Positions 6,937 through 15,509 of a stretch of 64,000 nucleotides of DNA are shown piece by piece (the first letter of the stretch is position 1; every line of letters begins with the position of its first letter). This DNA is from Dyella dinghuensis (GTDB lineage: Bacteria; Pseudomonadota; Gammaproteobacteria; Xanthomonadales; Rhodanobacteraceae), in NCBI RefSeq assembly GCF_003977615.1, contig NZ_RYZR01000002.1, positions 249,214 to 313,213 of the forward strand, in the 5' to 3' direction. The notes below the pieces were generated by a model. That model worked only from the letters and a program-made list of their open reading frames with translations. It ran no database searches and had not been told where the DNA came from. The translations under genes were made by a program, and so were the position numbers.

Positions 6937-8757
6937 ATGAACCGACGTGACGTATTGAAGGCTGCCTTTGCGCTTCCGTTTGTATCAAGCGTGATGACCG
7001 GCGGCATCGCCTCAGCGTTCGTAGCGACCGGAAAAAAAGTCGCGAGCGCGTTCCGCTCACGCGTGCGGCCCGGTGATCCGGGCTGGCCTTCATTGGCGGA
7101 ATGGGACCGGTTGAAGAACGAGGTGGGCGGTCGTCTCTTTAAACTGACATCGCCTTTTGCCGATTCCAACTCGGCGGCCTGCCAGAACGCGCTCAAACAC
7201 ATCAAGAATCCGTTCTTCATCGGCGACGACCCCGCACTTACACAGACCAGCGGCTGGGCGGATGCCTGGGTTTCGCGACCAAGCGCCTACGCCGTGGCTG
7301 CAGAAAGCACGGCGGATGTTGTGGCAGCGGTGAACTTTGCGCGCGAACATCATCTGCGCCTGGTCGTGAAAGGCGGTGGCCACAGTTATCAGGGCACGTC
7401 CGATGCACCCGATTCCTTGCTCGTGTGGTCGCGGCACATGAATAAGGTGACGCTGCACGATGCCTTCGTTGCACAGGGTTGCGAAGGCGTGCACGCAGCG
7501 CAGCCAGCGGTTACCGTGCAGTCTGGTGCCATGTGGATCGATGCATACGATGCCGTGACGACGCACGGCGGCCGTTACGTGCAAGGCGGCGGTTGCACGA
7601 CCGTGGGCGTTGCCGGGCTCATCCAGAGCGGCGGTTTCGGCAGTTTCTCCAAACAGTTCGGAACCGCTGCGTCCGGATTGATCGAAGCGGAGATCGTTAC
7701 AGCCGATGGTGTTGTGCGCATCGCCAACGCGTGTACAAATCCGGAGTTGTTCTGGGGCATCAAAGGCGGTGGCGGTGGCAGTCTGGGCGTCGTGACGCGG
7801 CTGACCTTGCGCACGCATGACTTGCCGATGTTCTTTGGCGGCATGTTCGGCGAAATCAAAGCATCCTCCGACGACGCGTATCGCGCGTTGATTGCGAAGG
7901 CGATCGACTTTTATCAAGGCCATTTGTTCAACCCGCACTGGGGCGAACAGATGTCGTTTCGGCCGGACAATTCGCTGCACATTTCGATGGTGTTCCAGGG
8001 ACTGGATCAGCAGGGTGCGCAGGCCGTGTGGGCGCCGTTTATCGACTGGGTTCATGCGCGAAAGGAATACGTCGTCACGCGCCCTGTGCAAGCCCTTGCG
8101 ATACCCGCGCAACATTTCTGGGATGCCGACTTTTTCCGCCAGCATGCGCCCGGTGTGATGGTCGATGACGATCGCGACGGGGCGCCGCGCAATCATGTGC
8201 TGTGGGCTGGCGATCAGGGACAGGTGGGCTGGTTTATCCATAGCTACAAATCAGCGTGGATGCCCGCTTCGCTTTTGCAGAAAGACAAGCAGTCGCAGCT
8301 CGTTGATGCGCTCTTTGCCTGCACGCGTCACTGGGATGTCGCGTTTCACTACAACAAGGGATTGGCGGGTGCGCCGGATGAGGCACTGGCAGCATCGCGA
8401 GACACTGCTACGAATCCGCAAGTGCTCGATGCGTTTGCGTTAGCGATCCTCGGTGCAAGTGGCGACCCGGCCTATCCGGGCATGCCTGGGCCAGGTCCCA
8501 ATATGGCTGACGCTCGCGACGATGCCACACACATTGCGAAGGCGACGGACGAGTTGCTGAAAGTCGTGCCTGATGCCGGTGCGTATGTATCGGAGAGCGA
8601 TTACTTCCAACAAGACTGGCAAGCGGCGTTCTGGGGCACGAATTATTCCAGGCTTGCAGCGGTGAAGCAGAAGTACGATCCGGACGGATTGTTCTTTGTG
8701 CATCACGGTGTCGGCAGTGAAGCGTGGAGTGCCGACGGATTTACGCGTGTAACTTAA
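6937..8757 (+). CDS. Tat-exported FAD-linked oxidase (BBE-type)
   Basis: The 606-residue protein begins with a twin-arginine signal (NRRDVLKAA), so a folded flavoprotein is exported. Residues 110-300 are a PCMH FAD-binding domain. His149 in GGGHSY and Cys220 in QGGGCTTVG sit where berberine-bridge-type oxidases attach FAD at two points, so bicovalent flavin is likely. The C-terminal BBE motif NYSRLAAVKQKYDPDGLFF is present. Such enzymes oxidise sugars, alcohols or alkaloid-like substrates with oxygen. The substrate is unknown and neighbours give no clue. Confidence 0.87.
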   Translation: MNRRDVLKAAFALPFVSSVMTGGIASAFVATGKKVASAFRSRVRPGDPGWPSLAEWDRLKNEVGGRLFKLTSPFADSNSAACQNALKHIKNPFFIGDDPALTQTSGWADAWVSRPSAYAVAAESTADVVAAVNFAREHHLRLVVKGGGHSYQGTSDAPDSLLVWSRHMNKVTLHDAFVAQGCEGVHAAQPAVTVQSGAMWIDAYDAVTTHGGRYVQGGGCTTVGVAGLIQSGGFGSFSKQFGTAASGLIEAEIVTADGVVRIANACTNPELFWGIKGGGGGSLGVVTRLTLRTHDLPMFFGGMFGEIKASSDDAYRALIAKAIDFYQGHLFNPHWGEQMSFRPDNSLHISMVFQGLDQQGAQAVWAPFIDWVHARKEYVVTRPVQALAIPAQHFWDADFFRQHAPGVMVDDDRDGAPRNHVLWAGDQGQVGWFIHSYKSAWMPASLLQKDKQSQLVDALFACTRHWDVAFHYNKGLAGAPDEALAASRDTATNPQVLDAFALAILGASGDPAYPGMPGPGPNMADARDDATHIAKATDELLKVVPDAGAYVSESDYFQQDWQAAFWGTNYSRLAAVKQKYDPDGLFFVHHGVGSEAWSADGFTRVT

Positions 8758-8791
8758 AGGCAAGTCATACGGCTAGAAAACGAACACTAAT

Positions 8792-8810
8792 AAGCTTAGG
8801 AGAAGCTTAG
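8792..8810 (+). promoter_or_regulatory. Tandem octamer repeat upstream of secreted protein gene
   Basis: The octamer AAGCTTAG occurs twice, starting at 8792 and 8803, which is 11 bases apart or about one helical turn. This arrangement suits a dimeric DNA-binding protein. It lies about 150 bases before the start of the secreted protein gene at 8963. Assignment as an operator is inference. Confidence 0.3.
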
Positions 8811-8962
8811 TTCCAGCTAATTTTTCTGCGCTTAGGTGATTGTCGTCACGCGAACCTAACATACGAACCATCTTGCGCGCCGCTGTCAAAAATACTTCAT
8901 TTCACATGATTACCGTGGCTGGGTTGTGCCCTGTAGCTCCGCTCACACACCACTCGGAGATC

Positions 8963-10651
8963 ATGATGACCATGACCACGTCTTTCCGCTTTAGACGTCG
9001 GCACGCTGTTGCCGCGCTTGCACTAACCGCGCTTGCAGCAAGTGTCGCTGCTTATGCCGATGATTTTTCGTTCCAGCGTGATTTTCGTTTTTGGCCAGAT
9101 AATCTGGTCGTCAGTCGCAGTGTGTACGACAACAATGCAAGCAACGTTCAGGTGGGAGAGATCTTGCCGCCGAACTGCCCGGCAAGTAGCGGTGCTTGCG
9201 GCGCTGCGCCGGGTGCACCGTATGACGGCACCTTTCCTTATGTGTTTAACGATGTCATCTATGATCCGAGCTTCGGTATCACTTCGCGCATCTACCTCGA
9301 TCAGCTGACGCCGAACGGTTGGTTGATCGATTCGCTGGAAGTTCCCAACAGTCTGCGTCCTGCTGCGCGAGAGGGTCAGTTGGTAACCAGCTTTAGTTCC
9401 AAGTCGGAACTTGGCCTGCATCTGTCGATGGACGGCAAGTACCTCACTTTTATGGGTTACGTTGCCCCGGTGAATTTCATCGATGCATCGAATGGCGATA
9501 CGCCCGCTGTCGTCGATCCGACGAACCCTGATGGGCAGTCCGTTTACCGCGCGGTTGCTACGGTCGACGGTGCGGGTCGATTCCAGTTCACCGAAACCAA
9601 TGCTTACAGCGGCAACAATGGCCGTGTCGCGATCTTCAATAACGTCAACGGCGAAAACATCTTCTACACCGCGGGCAACGCTGGTAATGGAAGCAACCCG
9701 CAGCCCGCCGGCGTCGTTCTTGGTGCTGGCGCGCAGTTCATCACGCCGTCGCAGTTGCCGGAGGCTTTGCAGAATCCGAGCACTCCTACGCCCTTGGCAA
9801 GTTTCTCTGTCACGACGCTCGGCGACAAAGCCGACAAGATCGGCAAAGACGATAACTTCCGCGGTATCGCCGTGTACAACAACGTGTTGTATTTCACCAA
9901 GGGCAGCGGCAGCAACGGCGTGAACACCGTGTACTTCGTGGACACCACAGGCACGGCATGTCCGAAAGGCGTAGGCGTTCCGGTGCCGGGTGCATCGCTG
10001 CCTACCGCACCTCTTTCCTACAACGCGGCCACACTGCAAACGACGGGTCTGCCGACCAACATGTGCATCCTTTCCGGCTTCCCGAGCACCCCGGTGAAGA
10101 CGGCGACGACGGTATCGTATCCGTTCGGTATCTGGTTCGCCGATGCAAACACGCTGTATGTCGCCGATGAAGGCGATGGCTATGTGGGTGGCACCGACCT
10201 GTATACGCATGCTGCCGCGCAGACGACAGCCGGTTTGCAGAAGTGGGTGTACAACGCGTCGACAAAGACCTGGAATCTCGCTTACACCTTGCAGGCTGGT
10301 TTGAATCTCGGCCAGCCCTACACGGTGCACAACTATCCCACCGGCACGAATGAAGCGACGAATCTGCCGTGGTCGCCGGCAACGGACGGTCTGCGTCAGC
10401 TCACCGGCCGCGTGGATGCCGACGGCAAGGTCACCATCTGGGCTGTTACCTCCACGATCAGTGGCGGCGGCGACACCGGTGCCGACCCGAACCGTCTGGT
10501 TGCGATTCGCGATACGTTGTCGAACACGACGGCTGCGGGCGCTGCGAAGGAACAGTTCGTGACCTTGCGCTCGGCGAAGTTCGCTGAAGTATTGCGCGGC
10601 GTGTCTTTCACCCCCGGCTCGAATACGTCGAACAGTCGCTGGCCTTGGTAA
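8963..10651 (+). CDS. Large secreted protein of unknown function
   Basis: The protein of 562 residues starts with an Arg-rich n-region and a signal peptide ending near AYA-DD (residue 33). ATG 8963 has GGAG four bases upstream; a longer in-frame start at 8840 lacks this and would bury the signal. The mature protein is rich in Gly, Asn and Thr with repeated strand-turn segments such as FRGIAVYNNVLYFTKG, YPFGIWFADANTLYVADEG and LTGRVDADGKVTIWAVT, which suggests a beta-propeller (NHL/SMP-30-like) shape. I do not recognise a catalytic family. A strong terminator follows. Confidence 0.72.
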   Translation: MMTMTTSFRFRRRHAVAALALTALAASVAAYADDFSFQRDFRFWPDNLVVSRSVYDNNASNVQVGEILPPNCPASSGACGAAPGAPYDGTFPYVFNDVIYDPSFGITSRIYLDQLTPNGWLIDSLEVPNSLRPAAREGQLVTSFSSKSELGLHLSMDGKYLTFMGYVAPVNFIDASNGDTPAVVDPTNPDGQSVYRAVATVDGAGRFQFTETNAYSGNNGRVAIFNNVNGENIFYTAGNAGNGSNPQPAGVVLGAGAQFITPSQLPEALQNPSTPTPLASFSVTTLGDKADKIGKDDNFRGIAVYNNVLYFTKGSGSNGVNTVYFVDTTGTACPKGVGVPVPGASLPTAPLSYNAATLQTTGLPTNMCILSGFPSTPVKTATTVSYPFGIWFADANTLYVADEGDGYVGGTDLYTHAAAQTTAGLQKWVYNASTKTWNLAYTLQAGLNLGQPYTVHNYPTGTNEATNLPWSPATDGLRQLTGRVDADGKVTIWAVTSTISGGGDTGADPNRLVAIRDTLSNTTAAGAAKEQFVTLRSAKFAEVLRGVSFTPGSNTSNSRWPW

Positions 10652-10674
10652 AACGCCAGAACGAAGATGAAAAG

Positions 10675-10703
10675 GCCGGCGCTATCAAGCGCCGGCTTTT
10701 TTT
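10675..10703 (+). terminator. Rho-independent terminator after secreted protein gene
   Basis: A nine-base stem GCCGGCGCT pairs with AGCGCCGGC around an ATCA loop and is followed by seven T residues. It lies 23 bases after the stop codon at 10651. Confidence 0.93.
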
Positions 10704-11104
10704 ATGCGGACGGGCGCGATGTGCTCCTCGTACCTGTAAAGGCGCATTTAGCGCCGATGTTTTTGCGATGATCCTCGAACACATGCTTGCGGTGAGCTGA
10801 AAAAAAGCTGCGGTGCATGAATTGCCCGGAAGGCCCCACTGGTGCAGCCCGCACGCACCATGTCCACCGGCTGATATAGCCGTCTAGTTATAAAGCCGGC
10901 CCGGAGGCCTTCGAGCCCTCCCCAGTTGCCGTGAAGGCACCCTTCAAAGGGTCCACACAGAATTTTCATCAGGTAGTCGCAACGCCGCCGGAAGGCGACC
11001 AATATTGGGGTACCGGGACCGCCCGAGGGCCTGGTATCGGCTGGCATTTGTCCTACCGAACAAACCCTGTCGTTAACGACTAAACAAATAGTGGAGACAC
11101 ACAC
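10704..11104 (+). promoter_or_regulatory. Long structured leader before the undA-like gene
   Basis: This 400-base stretch has no convincing gene. It is full of hairpins: GGCGC/GCGCC at 10741-10755, CGGCT/AGCCG at 10868-10882, ACCCTTCAAAGGGT near 10950, and a nine-pair stem joining 11009-11017 (GGTACCGGG) with 11030-11038 (CCTGGTATC). The last stem contains two G-U pairs that would be A-C mismatches in the opposite-strand RNA, so the structure fits a transcript on the plus strand. It does not match a riboswitch I recognise. It may be a regulatory leader or an independent RNA. Confidence 0.4.
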
Positions 11105-11881
11105 ATGCACGCACATTTCGAACGCACCGGCGACCTGATGGAACTGTCCACCTACCCGACCTGGGCCCAGGATTTGGTTACCCATTGCGAGGAGACCAAG
11201 CAAGGCGTGATTGGTCATGGCATTTGGACGATGATGCGCGAAGCCCGTCTGGACGCCCAGGCGACGCGCGATTTCATGGTCGGCGTATGGCCGGTTATCG
11301 AGCGCTTTCCCGCCTATATGGCGCAAAATCTGCTGAAAACGCGTTATGGCCGCAGCCAGGGCGAAAACATGGCCCGCCGGTGGCTGGTACGTAACATCCG
11401 AGTGGAGCAGAATCATGCCGACTATTGGCTAAATTGGGCCGAAGGGGCCGGCGTTTCCAGGGACGACGTATTGAATGGCCCGGTCCCGTATGGTTCGGAG
11501 GCACTGGCCGGGTGGTGCGAAGAGGTGAGCCGTAGCGCGCCGTTGGCGGCAGGCATGATTGCCACCAATTACGCGGTCGAAGGGGCAACAGGGGAATGGT
11601 CGCAGCTGGTCTACGACAGCTTGGCCTATCACGAATCACTCCCCCAGTCCGTTCGGGCCCATAGCCTGCGTTGGCTTCAACTTCACGCAGCCTATGACGA
11701 TACTCATCCCTGGGAAGCGCTGGAGATCGTATGCACCCTGGTGGGTACCTCTCCTCGAGCAGATCAGGTCGCTTACCTGCAAGAATGCGTGAAACGGAGC
11801 TATGTCAGCATGAGGATCACTCTGGATCGTTGCCTGGATGTGCGTCGCGACCCATGGCTGGCCAACGAGGCTGCCGCTTAA
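11105..11881 (+). CDS. undA: UndA-like heme-oxygenase-fold diiron oxidase
   Basis: This 258-residue all-helical protein has the ligand set of the non-heme diiron UndA family: Glu66, Glu101 and His104 (in RVEQNHADYW), Glu159 (in NYAVEGATGEW), and His194 with Asp198 (in LHAAYDDTH). These positions agree almost residue for residue with those reported for Pseudomonas UndA (E67, E101, H104, E159, H194, D198), and the length is also nearly the same. UndA converts medium-chain fatty acids to terminal alkenes, for example lauric acid to 1-undecene, using Fe and O2. The protein is cytoplasmic with no signal. GGAG precedes the ATG. Older annotation would call it TenA/PqqC-like. Confidence 0.78.
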   Translation: MHAHFERTGDLMELSTYPTWAQDLVTHCEETKQGVIGHGIWTMMREARLDAQATRDFMVGVWPVIERFPAYMAQNLLKTRYGRSQGENMARRWLVRNIRVEQNHADYWLNWAEGAGVSRDDVLNGPVPYGSEALAGWCEEVSRSAPLAAGMIATNYAVEGATGEWSQLVYDSLAYHESLPQSVRAHSLRWLQLHAAYDDTHPWEALEIVCTLVGTSPRADQVAYLQECVKRSYVSMRITLDRCLDVRRDPWLANEAAA

Positions 11882-11966
11882 ACGCTTAAGTTTCATGCGG
11901 TAGGGGGCGATACACATATCAGCAGCTTCTTCGTGTGGAGTGTCAGCTGATTACAATAGGGGCACG

Positions 11967-14714
11967 ATGCGTATCGCTCGCAAAGTTCAGCAACGGCCGC
12001 TGTTACGACGCCTTATGCCATTGGCATATGGGTTGGCGGCGGTCGTTGGTCTTGTTTTATGCCTGACCTGGGGTGCCCTCCAGGTCCAGGTAACGCTTGC
12101 CGGTTTTTTGAATGGCGAAAGTCTTTGGTCGAAGGCCCAGAAGCAGGCGGTCATCGACCTGTATGTCTACGCCCGCAGCGGCGATCCCACTGACCTGGAC
12201 AACTTCCGGCGCAACTACGAAGTCTTGCGCACGGACCGTTGGGCGCGCGACACGATCGCCACCGGCCATTACAAGAAGGCCGAGGTGGATGATGCGTTCA
12301 AGCGTGGCGGCGTCATTCCCGCCGCCATTCCCGGGATGGTTTTCATCCTGGATCACTTCTCGCAAGCGCCCTACATGGGGCAAGCAGTAAAAGACTGGCG
12401 CTCTGTCGATAGCTCCATCGAAGAACTCAACGCCATCGCCAATCACCTTGAGCAGGTGTATGCCCACGGCACTCCGGCTGCTGCAGAGCTGGAACAGCAG
12501 CGCGCGCGAATCGATACGCTGAACGATTACATCCAGCCGCGCAGCGACGAATTTTCGCTGGATATCGCGCTGGGTGCGGCATGGCTGGGCAAGGTGCTGT
12601 TCTTCAGCGTACTGGTCAGCGCCATGCTGGCGTGCCTGATCTGGTTCCGCATGGCCAAGCGCATTTTCACTAGCATCCGCGGCACGGAAGAGCGTTATCA
12701 GCTGCTGTTCGACAGCGCGGCCGATGGCATCGTAATGGTCGATGAAACGCACGGCATCATTCTTGGCGTCAATCGCACCGCCTGCATCTGGACAGGGCAC
12801 GAGTCGAACGCGCTAATCGGAAAGAACTTCCAGGATCTGTTTATCGAAGGCAGTACACGTTCGGCAGGCGCGCAAACGATAGGCATGTTGCGCGCCGAGA
12901 ACGGCCTGGTACGCACGGTGGAAACGCATAGCAGCCTTACCACCTGGGGCGCGCAACCGGTGCGTCAGGCCATCATGCGCGACATTTCCGATCGCGTGGC
13001 GATGGAGCAGGAGCGTCGTATCGCTTCGGAGGCCATGGCCAGTGTGGCGGAAGGCTTGATCATTGCCGATGCCGACCGCCGCATTACGACCATCAATAGC
13101 GCGCTGACACGCATCAGCGGCTACACATTGCAATACCTGCAACACCATCGTTTCGACGAACTGAGGCGTATGCCGGACGGCTCGCCGTTGCCATCGTCCA
13201 TCTGGGAGATGGTTGCCGATGGCGGCAACTGGGTGAGCGAAGTGCAGAGCTGGCGCGCGGACGGGTCGTCGTATCCGGAGCTGCTCAGCATCAGCGCCAT
13301 TCGCAATAGCGAGGGACGCATACAGCATTACGTCGCCGTGGTGACGGATATCACGCGCAGCAAGGCCGATCGCCAGCGCCTCGAATATATGGTGGCGCAC
13401 GATCCATTGACCGGACTTGCCAATCGCAGCGAATTCCAGCGTCACTGCGCCAATGCTATCGATGCCGCCGCGCGCACCAATGGTGCAGCAGCCGTGTTGT
13501 TCGTCGATCTGGATGCGTTCAAGGCGGTGAACGACAGTTACAGCCACGCCATCGGCGACCGTTTGCTGGTGAAGGTGGCGCAACGCATTCGTCGCGAACT
13601 GGGCGAGAACGATGTGGCCAGCCGTATCGGCGGCGATGAATTTACCGTGTTGCTTGGCAGTTTGCGCACGCGCGAACAAGCAGCGCAGTTTGCCAGCCGC
13701 CTGTTGCTGAGCTTGTCCGAGCCGATGCTGATTGGCGATTACGAAATCGTGATGAGTGCGAGCATTGGCATCTCGGGCTATCCGCTGGACGGCAGCGATC
13801 CGGTGGTGTTGATCGCCAATGCCGACGCGGCGATGTATGCCGCCAAGACGCAGGAGCGCAACACGTTCCGCTTCTACACGCCATTGATGCACGCCGATGC
13901 GCGCATGCGTTTGATGCTGGGTGCCGATCTTCGTCAGGCGCTGATGCGCGACGAATTCCATCTGGCATTCCAGCCCAGCGTGGAATTGCGCAGCGGCCGC
14001 ATTGTGGCCGTGGAAGCCTTGCTGCGCTGGCGTCATCCCGAGCGCGGTGAGTTGATGCCGGATGAGTTTATTCCGTTGGCGGAAAGCCTTGGCCTGATCC
14101 GGCGAATCGATGCGTGGACGCTGCGTGCCGTGTGCGCGCAGATACGTCAATGGGATCAGGCAAAGTTGCCGCCGATACGCGTTGCACTGAATGCGTCGGC
14201 GGCCACCTTCGGTCATCCCGGCTTTATCGAAAGCGTGAAACAGGCGCTGCAGATCAGTCAGATTTCACCGAAGCGTCTGCTGTTTGAAATCACCGAAAGC
14301 GCGATTCTGCGTTTGGGCGAGGCCACCGAGCAGACCATCCACGCACTCCATGCGTTGGGTATTTGCATCGCGATCGACGACTTCGGCACGGGTTATTCGT
14401 CGCTGGCGTATCTGAAGATGTCCGGTATCGATTTCCTGAAGATCGACCGCTCGTTCGTCACCGACTTGCCCGATAGCAGCAACGACGTCGCTATCGTCGA
14501 AGCGATGCTGGCCATCGCCAAGAGTCTGGGTATGTACACGATTGCCGAAGGCATCGAAACGGCGGCGCAGCACGAATTCCTGCTCCAGGCCGGTTGCAGC
14601 GAAGGGCAGGGTTATTACTATGCGCGCGGCCTGCCGCCGGTGGAGATTGAGCGCATGCTGCTGCCCAATCCCCGCCACGAACCATCCAAGCTGCGGTTGG
14701 TTCCTCCGAAGTAA
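11967..14714 (+). CDS. PAS-GGDEF-EAL cyclic-di-GMP signalling protein
   Basis: The protein of 915 residues has a membrane helix at about 17-38, a periplasmic loop, a second helix near 190-215, two PAS domains (about 230-345 and 350-460), a GGDEF domain with intact RIGGDEF at 553-559, and an EAL domain with intact Glu683-Ala-Leu. The signature DDFGTGYSSLAYL is present. The RxxD product-inhibition site before GGDEF reads GEND, so feedback control is probably absent. It may both make and break cyclic-di-GMP. ATG 11967 is preferred over GTG 11940 because AGGGG lies before it. Confidence 0.9.
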   Translation: MRIARKVQQRPLLRRLMPLAYGLAAVVGLVLCLTWGALQVQVTLAGFLNGESLWSKAQKQAVIDLYVYARSGDPTDLDNFRRNYEVLRTDRWARDTIATGHYKKAEVDDAFKRGGVIPAAIPGMVFILDHFSQAPYMGQAVKDWRSVDSSIEELNAIANHLEQVYAHGTPAAAELEQQRARIDTLNDYIQPRSDEFSLDIALGAAWLGKVLFFSVLVSAMLACLIWFRMAKRIFTSIRGTEERYQLLFDSAADGIVMVDETHGIILGVNRTACIWTGHESNALIGKNFQDLFIEGSTRSAGAQTIGMLRAENGLVRTVETHSSLTTWGAQPVRQAIMRDISDRVAMEQERRIASEAMASVAEGLIIADADRRITTINSALTRISGYTLQYLQHHRFDELRRMPDGSPLPSSIWEMVADGGNWVSEVQSWRADGSSYPELLSISAIRNSEGRIQHYVAVVTDITRSKADRQRLEYMVAHDPLTGLANRSEFQRHCANAIDAAARTNGAAAVLFVDLDAFKAVNDSYSHAIGDRLLVKVAQRIRRELGENDVASRIGGDEFTVLLGSLRTREQAAQFASRLLLSLSEPMLIGDYEIVMSASIGISGYPLDGSDPVVLIANADAAMYAAKTQERNTFRFYTPLMHADARMRLMLGADLRQALMRDEFHLAFQPSVELRSGRIVAVEALLRWRHPERGELMPDEFIPLAESLGLIRRIDAWTLRAVCAQIRQWDQAKLPPIRVALNASAATFGHPGFIESVKQALQISQISPKRLLFEITESAILRLGEATEQTIHALHALGICIAIDDFGTGYSSLAYLKMSGIDFLKIDRSFVTDLPDSSNDVAIVEAMLAIAKSLGMYTIAEGIETAAQHEFLLQAGCSEGQGYYYARGLPPVEIERMLLPNPRHEPSKLRLVPPK

Positions 14715-14719
14715 TCCGC

Positions 14720-15403
14720 TTACAGCTTCACGTCGACAACAGCTTCTTCCGGCTGATACAGCGACGGATACAGCTGCTTGAGCGCAGCAACTTTGGGCGC
14801 GTCGTTGATCACGATATACGGCTCGTCGGGATGCGTACGCGCGTAATCCTGATGGTAGGACTCCGCTTCGTAGAACGCGTTCAACGGTTGTAACTGCGTC
14901 ACGATCGATCCGTTGAAAACTTTCGCCGCATTGAGCTGCGCGATGTATGACTGGGCAATCTTCTGCTGCTGCGGATTGGTGAAGAAGATTTCCGAGCGGT
15001 ATTGCGTACCGGTGTCAGGGCCCTGGCGATTCAGTTCCGTTGGGTCGTGCGCGACGCCGAAGTACACCTTCAGCAGTTGGCCGTAGCTGACCACCGAGGG
15101 GTCGAATTCCACTTTCACGGATTCGGCGTGGCCGGTGTTGCCGTCGCTGACGTCGTCGTAGTGGGCCGTGCTCGCTGCGCCGCCGCTGTAGCCCGCCCAG
15201 ACCTGTTTCACGCCGTGCACGTGTTCGAACACGGATTGCAGGCCCCAGAAGCAGCCGCCTGCCAGTACGGCGGTTTCGGTGGCGTGGGTGGCGGTTTTGG
15301 CGGTGTCGTAGGTGGGGTCGGGGAGGTTGGCGGTGCTTGCGGTGGCTGAGCAGGCGGTGAGGGCGGCGAGGGTGAATAGGGTGGCTAGACTGCGGGTGCG
15401 CAT
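14720..15403 (-). CDS. msrA: Peptide-methionine (S)-S-oxide reductase, lipoprotein
   Basis: The family signature GCFWG is at residues 50-54, with Cys51 as the catalytic nucleophile, followed by YSGG and the GHAESVKVEFDP segment. MsrA repairs oxidised methionine in proteins. An N-terminal signal with lipobox LTAC (Cys18) predicts a lipoprotein, so it acts in the envelope rather than the cytoplasm. GGAG precedes the ATG at 15403. It is convergent with the cyclic-di-GMP protein gene, with five bases between the stop codons. Confidence 0.93.
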   Translation of the reverse strand: MRTRSLATLFTLAALTACSATASTANLPDPTYDTAKTATHATETAVLAGGCFWGLQSVFEHVHGVKQVWAGYSGGAASTAHYDDVSDGNTGHAESVKVEFDPSVVSYGQLLKVYFGVAHDPTELNRQGPDTGTQYRSEIFFTNPQQQKIAQSYIAQLNAAKVFNGSIVTQLQPLNAFYEAESYHQDYARTHPDEPYIVINDAPKVAALKQLYPSLYQPEEAVVDVKL

Positions 15404-15487
15404 GGGGACTCCAGGAATGTCCGGATGTCTTGTATTCGTTTTGGGTGCTTTGAAGGTTACTTCGTAAGCTTGCGATCACGTTAATCT

Positions 15488-15509
15488 CGTCATTCCGGCG
15501 AAGGCCGGA
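15488..15509. repeat. Partial copy of inverted-repeat arm
   Basis: The 22 bases starting CGTCATTCCGGCGAAGG match the left arm of the complete inverted-repeat element at 38070-38170. Here the right arm is absent and the sequence diverges after CCGGA, so this looks like a decayed or single-arm copy. Confidence 0.6.

Follow-up and report, generated by a model that had tools for sequence, protein, structure and literature searches.

UndA is described as a diiron enzyme whose ligands are three histidines and three carboxylates, with Fe1 bound by the substrate carboxylate and W190 suggested as the start of the radical reaction (PMC13108848), and its substrates are reported to be C10-C14 free acids (PMC10614000). 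An UndA-type decarboxylase would be a soluble, helical protein that holds two irons, binds a free medium-chain fatty acid through its carboxylate and activates O2; its products would be CO2 and a terminal alkene with one carbon fewer than the acid. In Pseudomonas, the pairing of undA with rbdA is already published: rbdA is stated always to lie beside undA, an observation that PMC10614000 credits to Rui 2014. The same paper reports that deletion of undA in P. fluorescens abolishes 1-undecene and yields flat biofilms, and that exposure to wild-type volatiles restores them. RbdA is PA0861, and its signal is described as unsettled, with manganese proposed (PMC10294637).

We analyzed a 64-kb window, meaning the whole stretch of 64,000 nucleotides under study, from the genome of Dyella dinghuensis (Rhodanobacteraceae). 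A sequence-only reading had proposed an UndA-type alkene-forming oxidase here. Our analysis suggests that the locus very likely encodes an UndA-type decarboxylase, predicted to form iso-branched 1-alkenes, that is partnered with a cyclic di-GMP (c-di-GMP) protein (Table 1). The predicted mechanism is ordinary for UndA; what makes the locus interesting is that its product is predicted to be branched and that undA is repeatedly paired with the gene for a c-di-GMP enzyme.

Table 1. Features of the undA locus in the D. dinghuensis window.
Feature	Position	Strand	Description	Basis
Berberine-bridge-type FAD oxidase gene	6937..8757		Adjoins the gene for the 603-aa protein	
603-aa protein gene	8840..10651		Signal-like start	By eye
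Promoter-like element	10976..11005	+	GTCGCAAC-N16-CAATAT; begins 129 bp 5' of undA	
undA	11105..11881	+	ATG start, 258 aa; UndA-type diiron fatty-acid decarboxylase (predicted)	Sequence, profile, fold
undA / GGDEF-EAL gene gap	11882..11966	+		Terminator scan
GGDEF-EAL partner gene	11967..14714	+	N-terminal sensor-like domain, two PAS, GGDEF, EAL; RbdA (PA0861) class	
N-terminal domain of partner	11997..12683	+	All-helical, 229 aa, hydrophobic ends	
GGDEF domain of partner	13395..13862	+		Domain search
EAL phosphodiesterase domain of partner	13926..14627	+		Domain search

By every sequence and fold comparison that we ran, the undA product belongs with UndA. A phmmer search of PDB chains returned 3OQL (E = 2.3e-83), 4WWJ (3.5e-78) and 6P5Q (6e-78), and the next match after the UndA-type chains was 4-aminobenzoate synthase, at E = 0.4 and among chance matches. 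A profile made from 34 Rhodanobacteraceae UndA members matched UndA chains at 4e-105 to 4e-101 and CADD at 2e-4. We obtained an AlphaFold2 model of the protein (pLDDT 92.4) and searched with it in Foldseek, which gave 3OQL at 6e-23, 4WWJ and 6P5Q at 1e-21 to 2e-21, and seven UndA-type chains in all between 6e-23 and 6e-20 with 45-51% identity. Other branches followed at 2e-6 (CADD), 2.5e-5 (TenA), 5e-5 (PqqC) and 2e-4 (BesC). With the UndA of Pseudomonas (4WWJ, 4WWZ, 4WX0, 6P5Q and 3OQL, the last an UndA-type chain deposited as a TenA homolog) the Dyella protein has in common full-length homology, the ligand residues, W190, the fold and the length, the last as the sequence-only reading had noted; identity is 47% to 4WWJ and 51% to 3OQL. 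With CADD/PabS, BesC, TenA and PqqC it shares the heme-oxygenase-like fold at far weaker scores, and we rejected these four families as its identity. That reading had named clustering with TenA, PqqC or another branch as evidence against itself; as far as clustering goes, it came through, because sequence, profile and fold all place the product with UndA and none gave a stronger match to TenA, PqqC, CADD or BesC.

Under automatic annotation the gene would probably receive a generic name, because its only Pfam match is PF14518 (score 42.7 bits, cut-off 28.9) and its sole NCBIfam match is the CADD model, far below cut-off at 33 of 200 bits. It is the single PF14518 match in the 4.2-Mb D. dinghuensis genome.

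We found that undA is a widespread trait of the Rhodanobacteraceae rather than an isolated homologue, being present in 131 of 197 genomes and 20 of 26 genera of the family. In the order, 85 of 298 genomes have a match, 83 of them in Rhodanobacteraceae and two elsewhere that are fragments of about 20 bits. Of 370 genomes in the class, four match: D. dinghuensis itself, two others at 60% and 35%, and a further one that is weak. Of 397 in the phylum, 14 match, namely three Rhodanobacteraceae, nine members of a single Pseudomonas-like family (48-51%) and two more at 35% and 26%. We use the label Pseudomonas-like for loci that group with the PDB UndA sequences and whose neighbor gene matches PA0861, that is RbdA, with 899 bits (L113). 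Among named-genome relatives (best 80 of 170), 64 of 80 are Dyella, Rhodanobacter, Luteibacter, Frateuria or Oleiagrimonas, and the rest are other Rhodanobacteraceae or loosely named metagenome-assembled genomes (MAGs). In this best 80 of 170 the nearest named loci are Dyella, apart from one Lysobacterales MAG, in keeping with the earlier call of a Xanthomonadales-like host. The D. dinghuensis gene is nested among Dyella in the undA tree, which like our other trees was drawn midpoint-rooted and places L122 and the pair L121/L124 on very long branches. Recent transfer of undA is unsupported: the gene nests in the Dyella clade and its GC content of 59.3% is like that of the window. In the literature searched, we found no earlier report of UndA in Rhodanobacteraceae among the matches listed; the distribution carries a trait so far centered on Pseudomonas into a large part of a family associated with soil and plants. 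One contig labelled Candidatus Eremiobacteraeota (L017) groups with Dyella psychrodurans in the undA tree and by its neighbor genes, and is probably mis-binned.

A distant UndA-like clade, about 35% identical to D. dinghuensis UndA, occurs in 36 of 46 genomes of a further family, f184 (L121, L177-L188, L190-L209), with an internal stop in 5 of the 36. L121 retains the ligand residues and is the one member of this clade in which we looked at them.

The fatty acids reported for the lineage suggest that the product may not be 1-undecene. Branched acids dominate the published profiles of Luteibacter (five strains; PMC9965599) and Dyella (six strains; PMC12789092), and neither table lists C12:0, the Dyella table omitting acids below 1%. 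Both give cellular rather than free acids. Because these tables are dominated by branched acids and do not list C12:0, we predict iso-branched 1-alkenes, a prediction whose chances we put at about even. The acids iso-C11:0 and iso-C13:0 3-OH appear in the Luteibacter and Dyella tables (PMC9965599, PMC12789092). Decarboxylation of iso-C13:0 would give 10-methyl-1-undecene, and that of iso-C11:0 would give 8-methyl-1-nonene; iso-branched products are likely because the acids available in the lineage are mostly branched. In a panel of about a dozen strains that included D. japonica, 10-methyl-1-undecene was reported as specific to Dyella yeojuensis, the compound being named by GC-MS in one strain of that species (PMC9330711). 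NCBI taxonomy gives D. yeojuensis as Luteibacter yeojuensis, and L. yeojuensis SU11 (L028) carries undA (67% identity) with an adjoining partner that has the N-terminal domain, making this orphan volatile of L. yeojuensis genetically testable. The compound has also been reported from Pseudomonas (PMC8840531; PMC3444334, the latter giving peak area only).

Less likely, in our estimate, is that the enzyme acts as its Pseudomonas counterpart does, converting lauric acid to straight-chain 1-undecene and giving branched products only incidentally. Ligand residues, W190 and fold as in Pseudomonas UndA would suit that reading, as would the scarcity of iso-C13:0, which three Luteibacter strains contain at 0.2-0.5%, which the table leaves undetected or unreported for the type strain L. 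yeojuensis DSM 17673 and for L. jiangsuensis (PMC9965599), and which is absent from the Dyella table with its 1% limit (PMC12789092). Against it are the lack of a C12:0 entry in both tables and the fact that the one alkene we found reported for Rhodanobacteraceae is branched. The Rhodanobacteraceae genes offer naturally occurring UndA variants with possible activity on branched acids. We could not establish a branched-chain keto-acid dehydrogenase dedicated to this purpose: the best E1 alpha passes a pyruvate-dehydrogenase model.

The gene downstream of undA encodes a protein that falls in the RbdA class by its architecture of sensor-like N-terminal domain, PAS, GGDEF and EAL. Its start is either the ATG used in Table 1, 85 bp after undA, or a GTG at 11940 in the ORF listing; its GGDEF, EALLRW, DDFGTG and EGIE motifs are intact, and by eye the protein appears to be membrane-anchored. 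The N-terminal domain is homologous to that of RbdA over its length (106-110 bits) and is followed, as in RbdA, by PAS, GGDEF and EAL; the Dyella protein differs in having one more PAS stretch and in lying on the other branch of the partner trees described below. Since no terminator-like site was found in the gap between the two genes, co-transcription is likely. The order of undA then PAS-PAS-GGDEF-EAL gene on one strand, probably in one transcript, would link the emission of alkenes to biofilm or dispersal as controlled by c-di-GMP. We consider such functional coupling moderately probable, and think it improbable that the partner senses the alkene directly.

The sensor-like domain itself gave no Pfam match, and a fold search with it returned nothing at E 0.001, the best match being a histidine-kinase periplasmic sensor (0.09), with NarQ lower. 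It occurs once in the D. dinghuensis genome: besides itself, the partner protein has 28 matches (29 in all), and none of them starts before residue 345. An ESxWSKxQK motif is invariant across 23 aligned rows. Because 45 of the 397 phylum genomes have the domain, it is not exclusive to undA operons; 12 of these 45 are among the 14 genomes with an UndA match. Scored with a profile built from Rhodanobacteraceae copies only, the Pseudomonas partners reach 106-110 bits, no higher than several copies that are not beside undA, which reach up to 131 bits when Rhodanobacteraceae's own are set aside.

For the co-occurrence of the two genes we counted loci L002-L081, L123 and L126-L151 with duplicates removed within groups and L083-L111 left out. 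A same-strand GGDEF-EAL gene adjoins undA in 106 of 106 distinct Rhodanobacteraceae-type loci. In named genomes it lies downstream and carries the N-terminal domain in 79/79 distinct loci; the further loci have a same-strand GGDEF-EAL neighbor in 27 of 27, with the domain in 26. The Pseudomonas-like loci have the opposite arrangement, with a same-strand GGDEF-EAL gene upstream of undA in all nine. Across Rhodanobacteraceae genomes, 130 have undA and a high-scoring N-terminal domain (the 245-bit line), one has undA only, four the domain only and 62 neither; a p-value for this co-occurrence is not trustworthy, because the genomes are related to one another and the copies that went into the profile lie beside undA. 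We found no earlier report of an undA/rbdA-type pairing in Rhodanobacteraceae among the matches listed in the literature searched, and the pairing offers a second case for a connection, proposed but left unexplained by Pseudomonas workers, between c-di-GMP and the emission of 1-alkenes. In one locus (L144, genome G124) the partner lies in separate frames.

A c-di-GMP neighbor for every UndA relative is ruled out by the distant f184 clade. Among 20 loci sampled from its 36 matching genomes, with UndA homologs 57-88% identical to that of L121, an adjoining same-strand GGDEF-EAL gene is present in two and no GGDEF or EAL gene in 12. The other six have a different GGDEF gene in the locus; in L209 it is on the same strand at a distance of 27 bp, and in L206 and L207 on the opposite strand at about 100 bp. 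L121 and L124 do have a GGDEF-EAL neighbor.

In trees of 46 N-terminal domains and 42 GGDEF-EAL cores (21 Rhodanobacteraceae rows, 6/9 Pseudomonas-like rows and 19/20 unlinked loci), the Pseudomonas partners fall among unlinked copies that come from other taxa, and are separate from the Rhodanobacteraceae partners. A single clade of undA-linked partners, with undA-less Rhodanobacteraceae copies nested in it, was rejected for the N-terminal domain (p-AU 0.003) and for the core (p-AU 0.001, with a long-branch warning); the same test without the nested copies also rejects (p-AU 0.0001), in what is an unfair comparison. On these values we rejected orthology of the two sets of partners, that is, one clade with RbdA. 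Because the linked partners do not form one clade and the gene order is opposite, the data favor two separate assemblies of the undA-partner pairing, and an ancient undA/GGDEF-EAL pairing with repeated loss and rearrangement may instead account for them. That the pairing is simply an inherited neighborhood without function we regard as a weaker possibility. Shared descent underlies the counts within each family, four Rhodanobacteraceae genomes keep the partner without undA and most f184 loci lack the pairing, all of which would fit such inheritance. The opposite gene order in two lineages whose partners are not one clade speaks against it, as do two genomes with two undA copies each (G013 and G097), which have a separate partner beside each copy. 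Somewhat doubtful, and offered tentatively, is the combined proposal that Rhodanobacteraceae emit iso-branched alkenes through UndA and that coupling to an RbdA-class c-di-GMP phosphodiesterase had two or more independent origins, with the gene order reversed between them; if true, a circuit of airborne alkene and biofilm would be a recurrent bacterial design.

All of E66, E101, H104, E159, W190, H194, D198 and H201 are present in the undA product and aligned with their UndA equivalents. All 109 distinct Rhodanobacteraceae-type sequences, and all 11 of the Pseudomonas type (9 loci and 2 PDB segments), have the same ligand residues and W190. These counts omit L140, where undA is broken into two frames close to the end of a contig, collapse the copies L001, L082 and L083 together with identical sequences, and place L123, from a genome assigned to another family, with the Rhodanobacteraceae type. 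We take the three histidines and three carboxylates of UndA to be E101, H104, E159, H194, D198 and H201, all found here; this assignment of positions is our own reading. The sequence-only reading had listed Glu66, Glu101, His104, Glu159, His194 and Asp198 as ligands; all six were found and aligned with UndA, while H201 (of HxxxDxxH) had been missed, and Glu66, itself invariant, would make a fourth carboxylate.

Seven positions are near-fixed (at least 90% per group) to residues unlike those of Pseudomonas: Y41W, V65I, M95V, L102Q, M193L, A228C and K231R. Three of these changes, V65I, L102Q and M193L, adjoin E66, E101 and H194, so substrate or rate could differ from Pseudomonas UndA. These changes and the sole NCBIfam match to CADD would suit some other heme-oxygenase-like diiron enzyme that merely resembles UndA (an amino-acid lyase, an N-oxygenase or a CADD-type protein), a very improbable identity given a full-length UndA match far stronger than those to CADD, BesC, TenA and PqqC. 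We are strongly confident in the predicted alkene-forming catalysis by the undA product. The gene is under purifying selection, with dN/dS of 0.07-0.16 against four relatives.

Upstream of undA, a purine-rich GTGGAG lies a few bases 5' of the start (by eye), and a scan of this region found no sigma-70 consensus site. The promoter-like pattern occurs in 13 of 102 Rhodanobacteraceae upstream regions, mostly Dyella, against 0.4% of random pieces, a count made on the very sequences from which the pattern was derived. A search of 8500-15500 against Rfam gave six weak matches, none reaching its gathering score. The 603-aa protein encoded further upstream has no Pfam or NCBIfam match, and it is found near undA in 22 loci, in Dyella and close kin.
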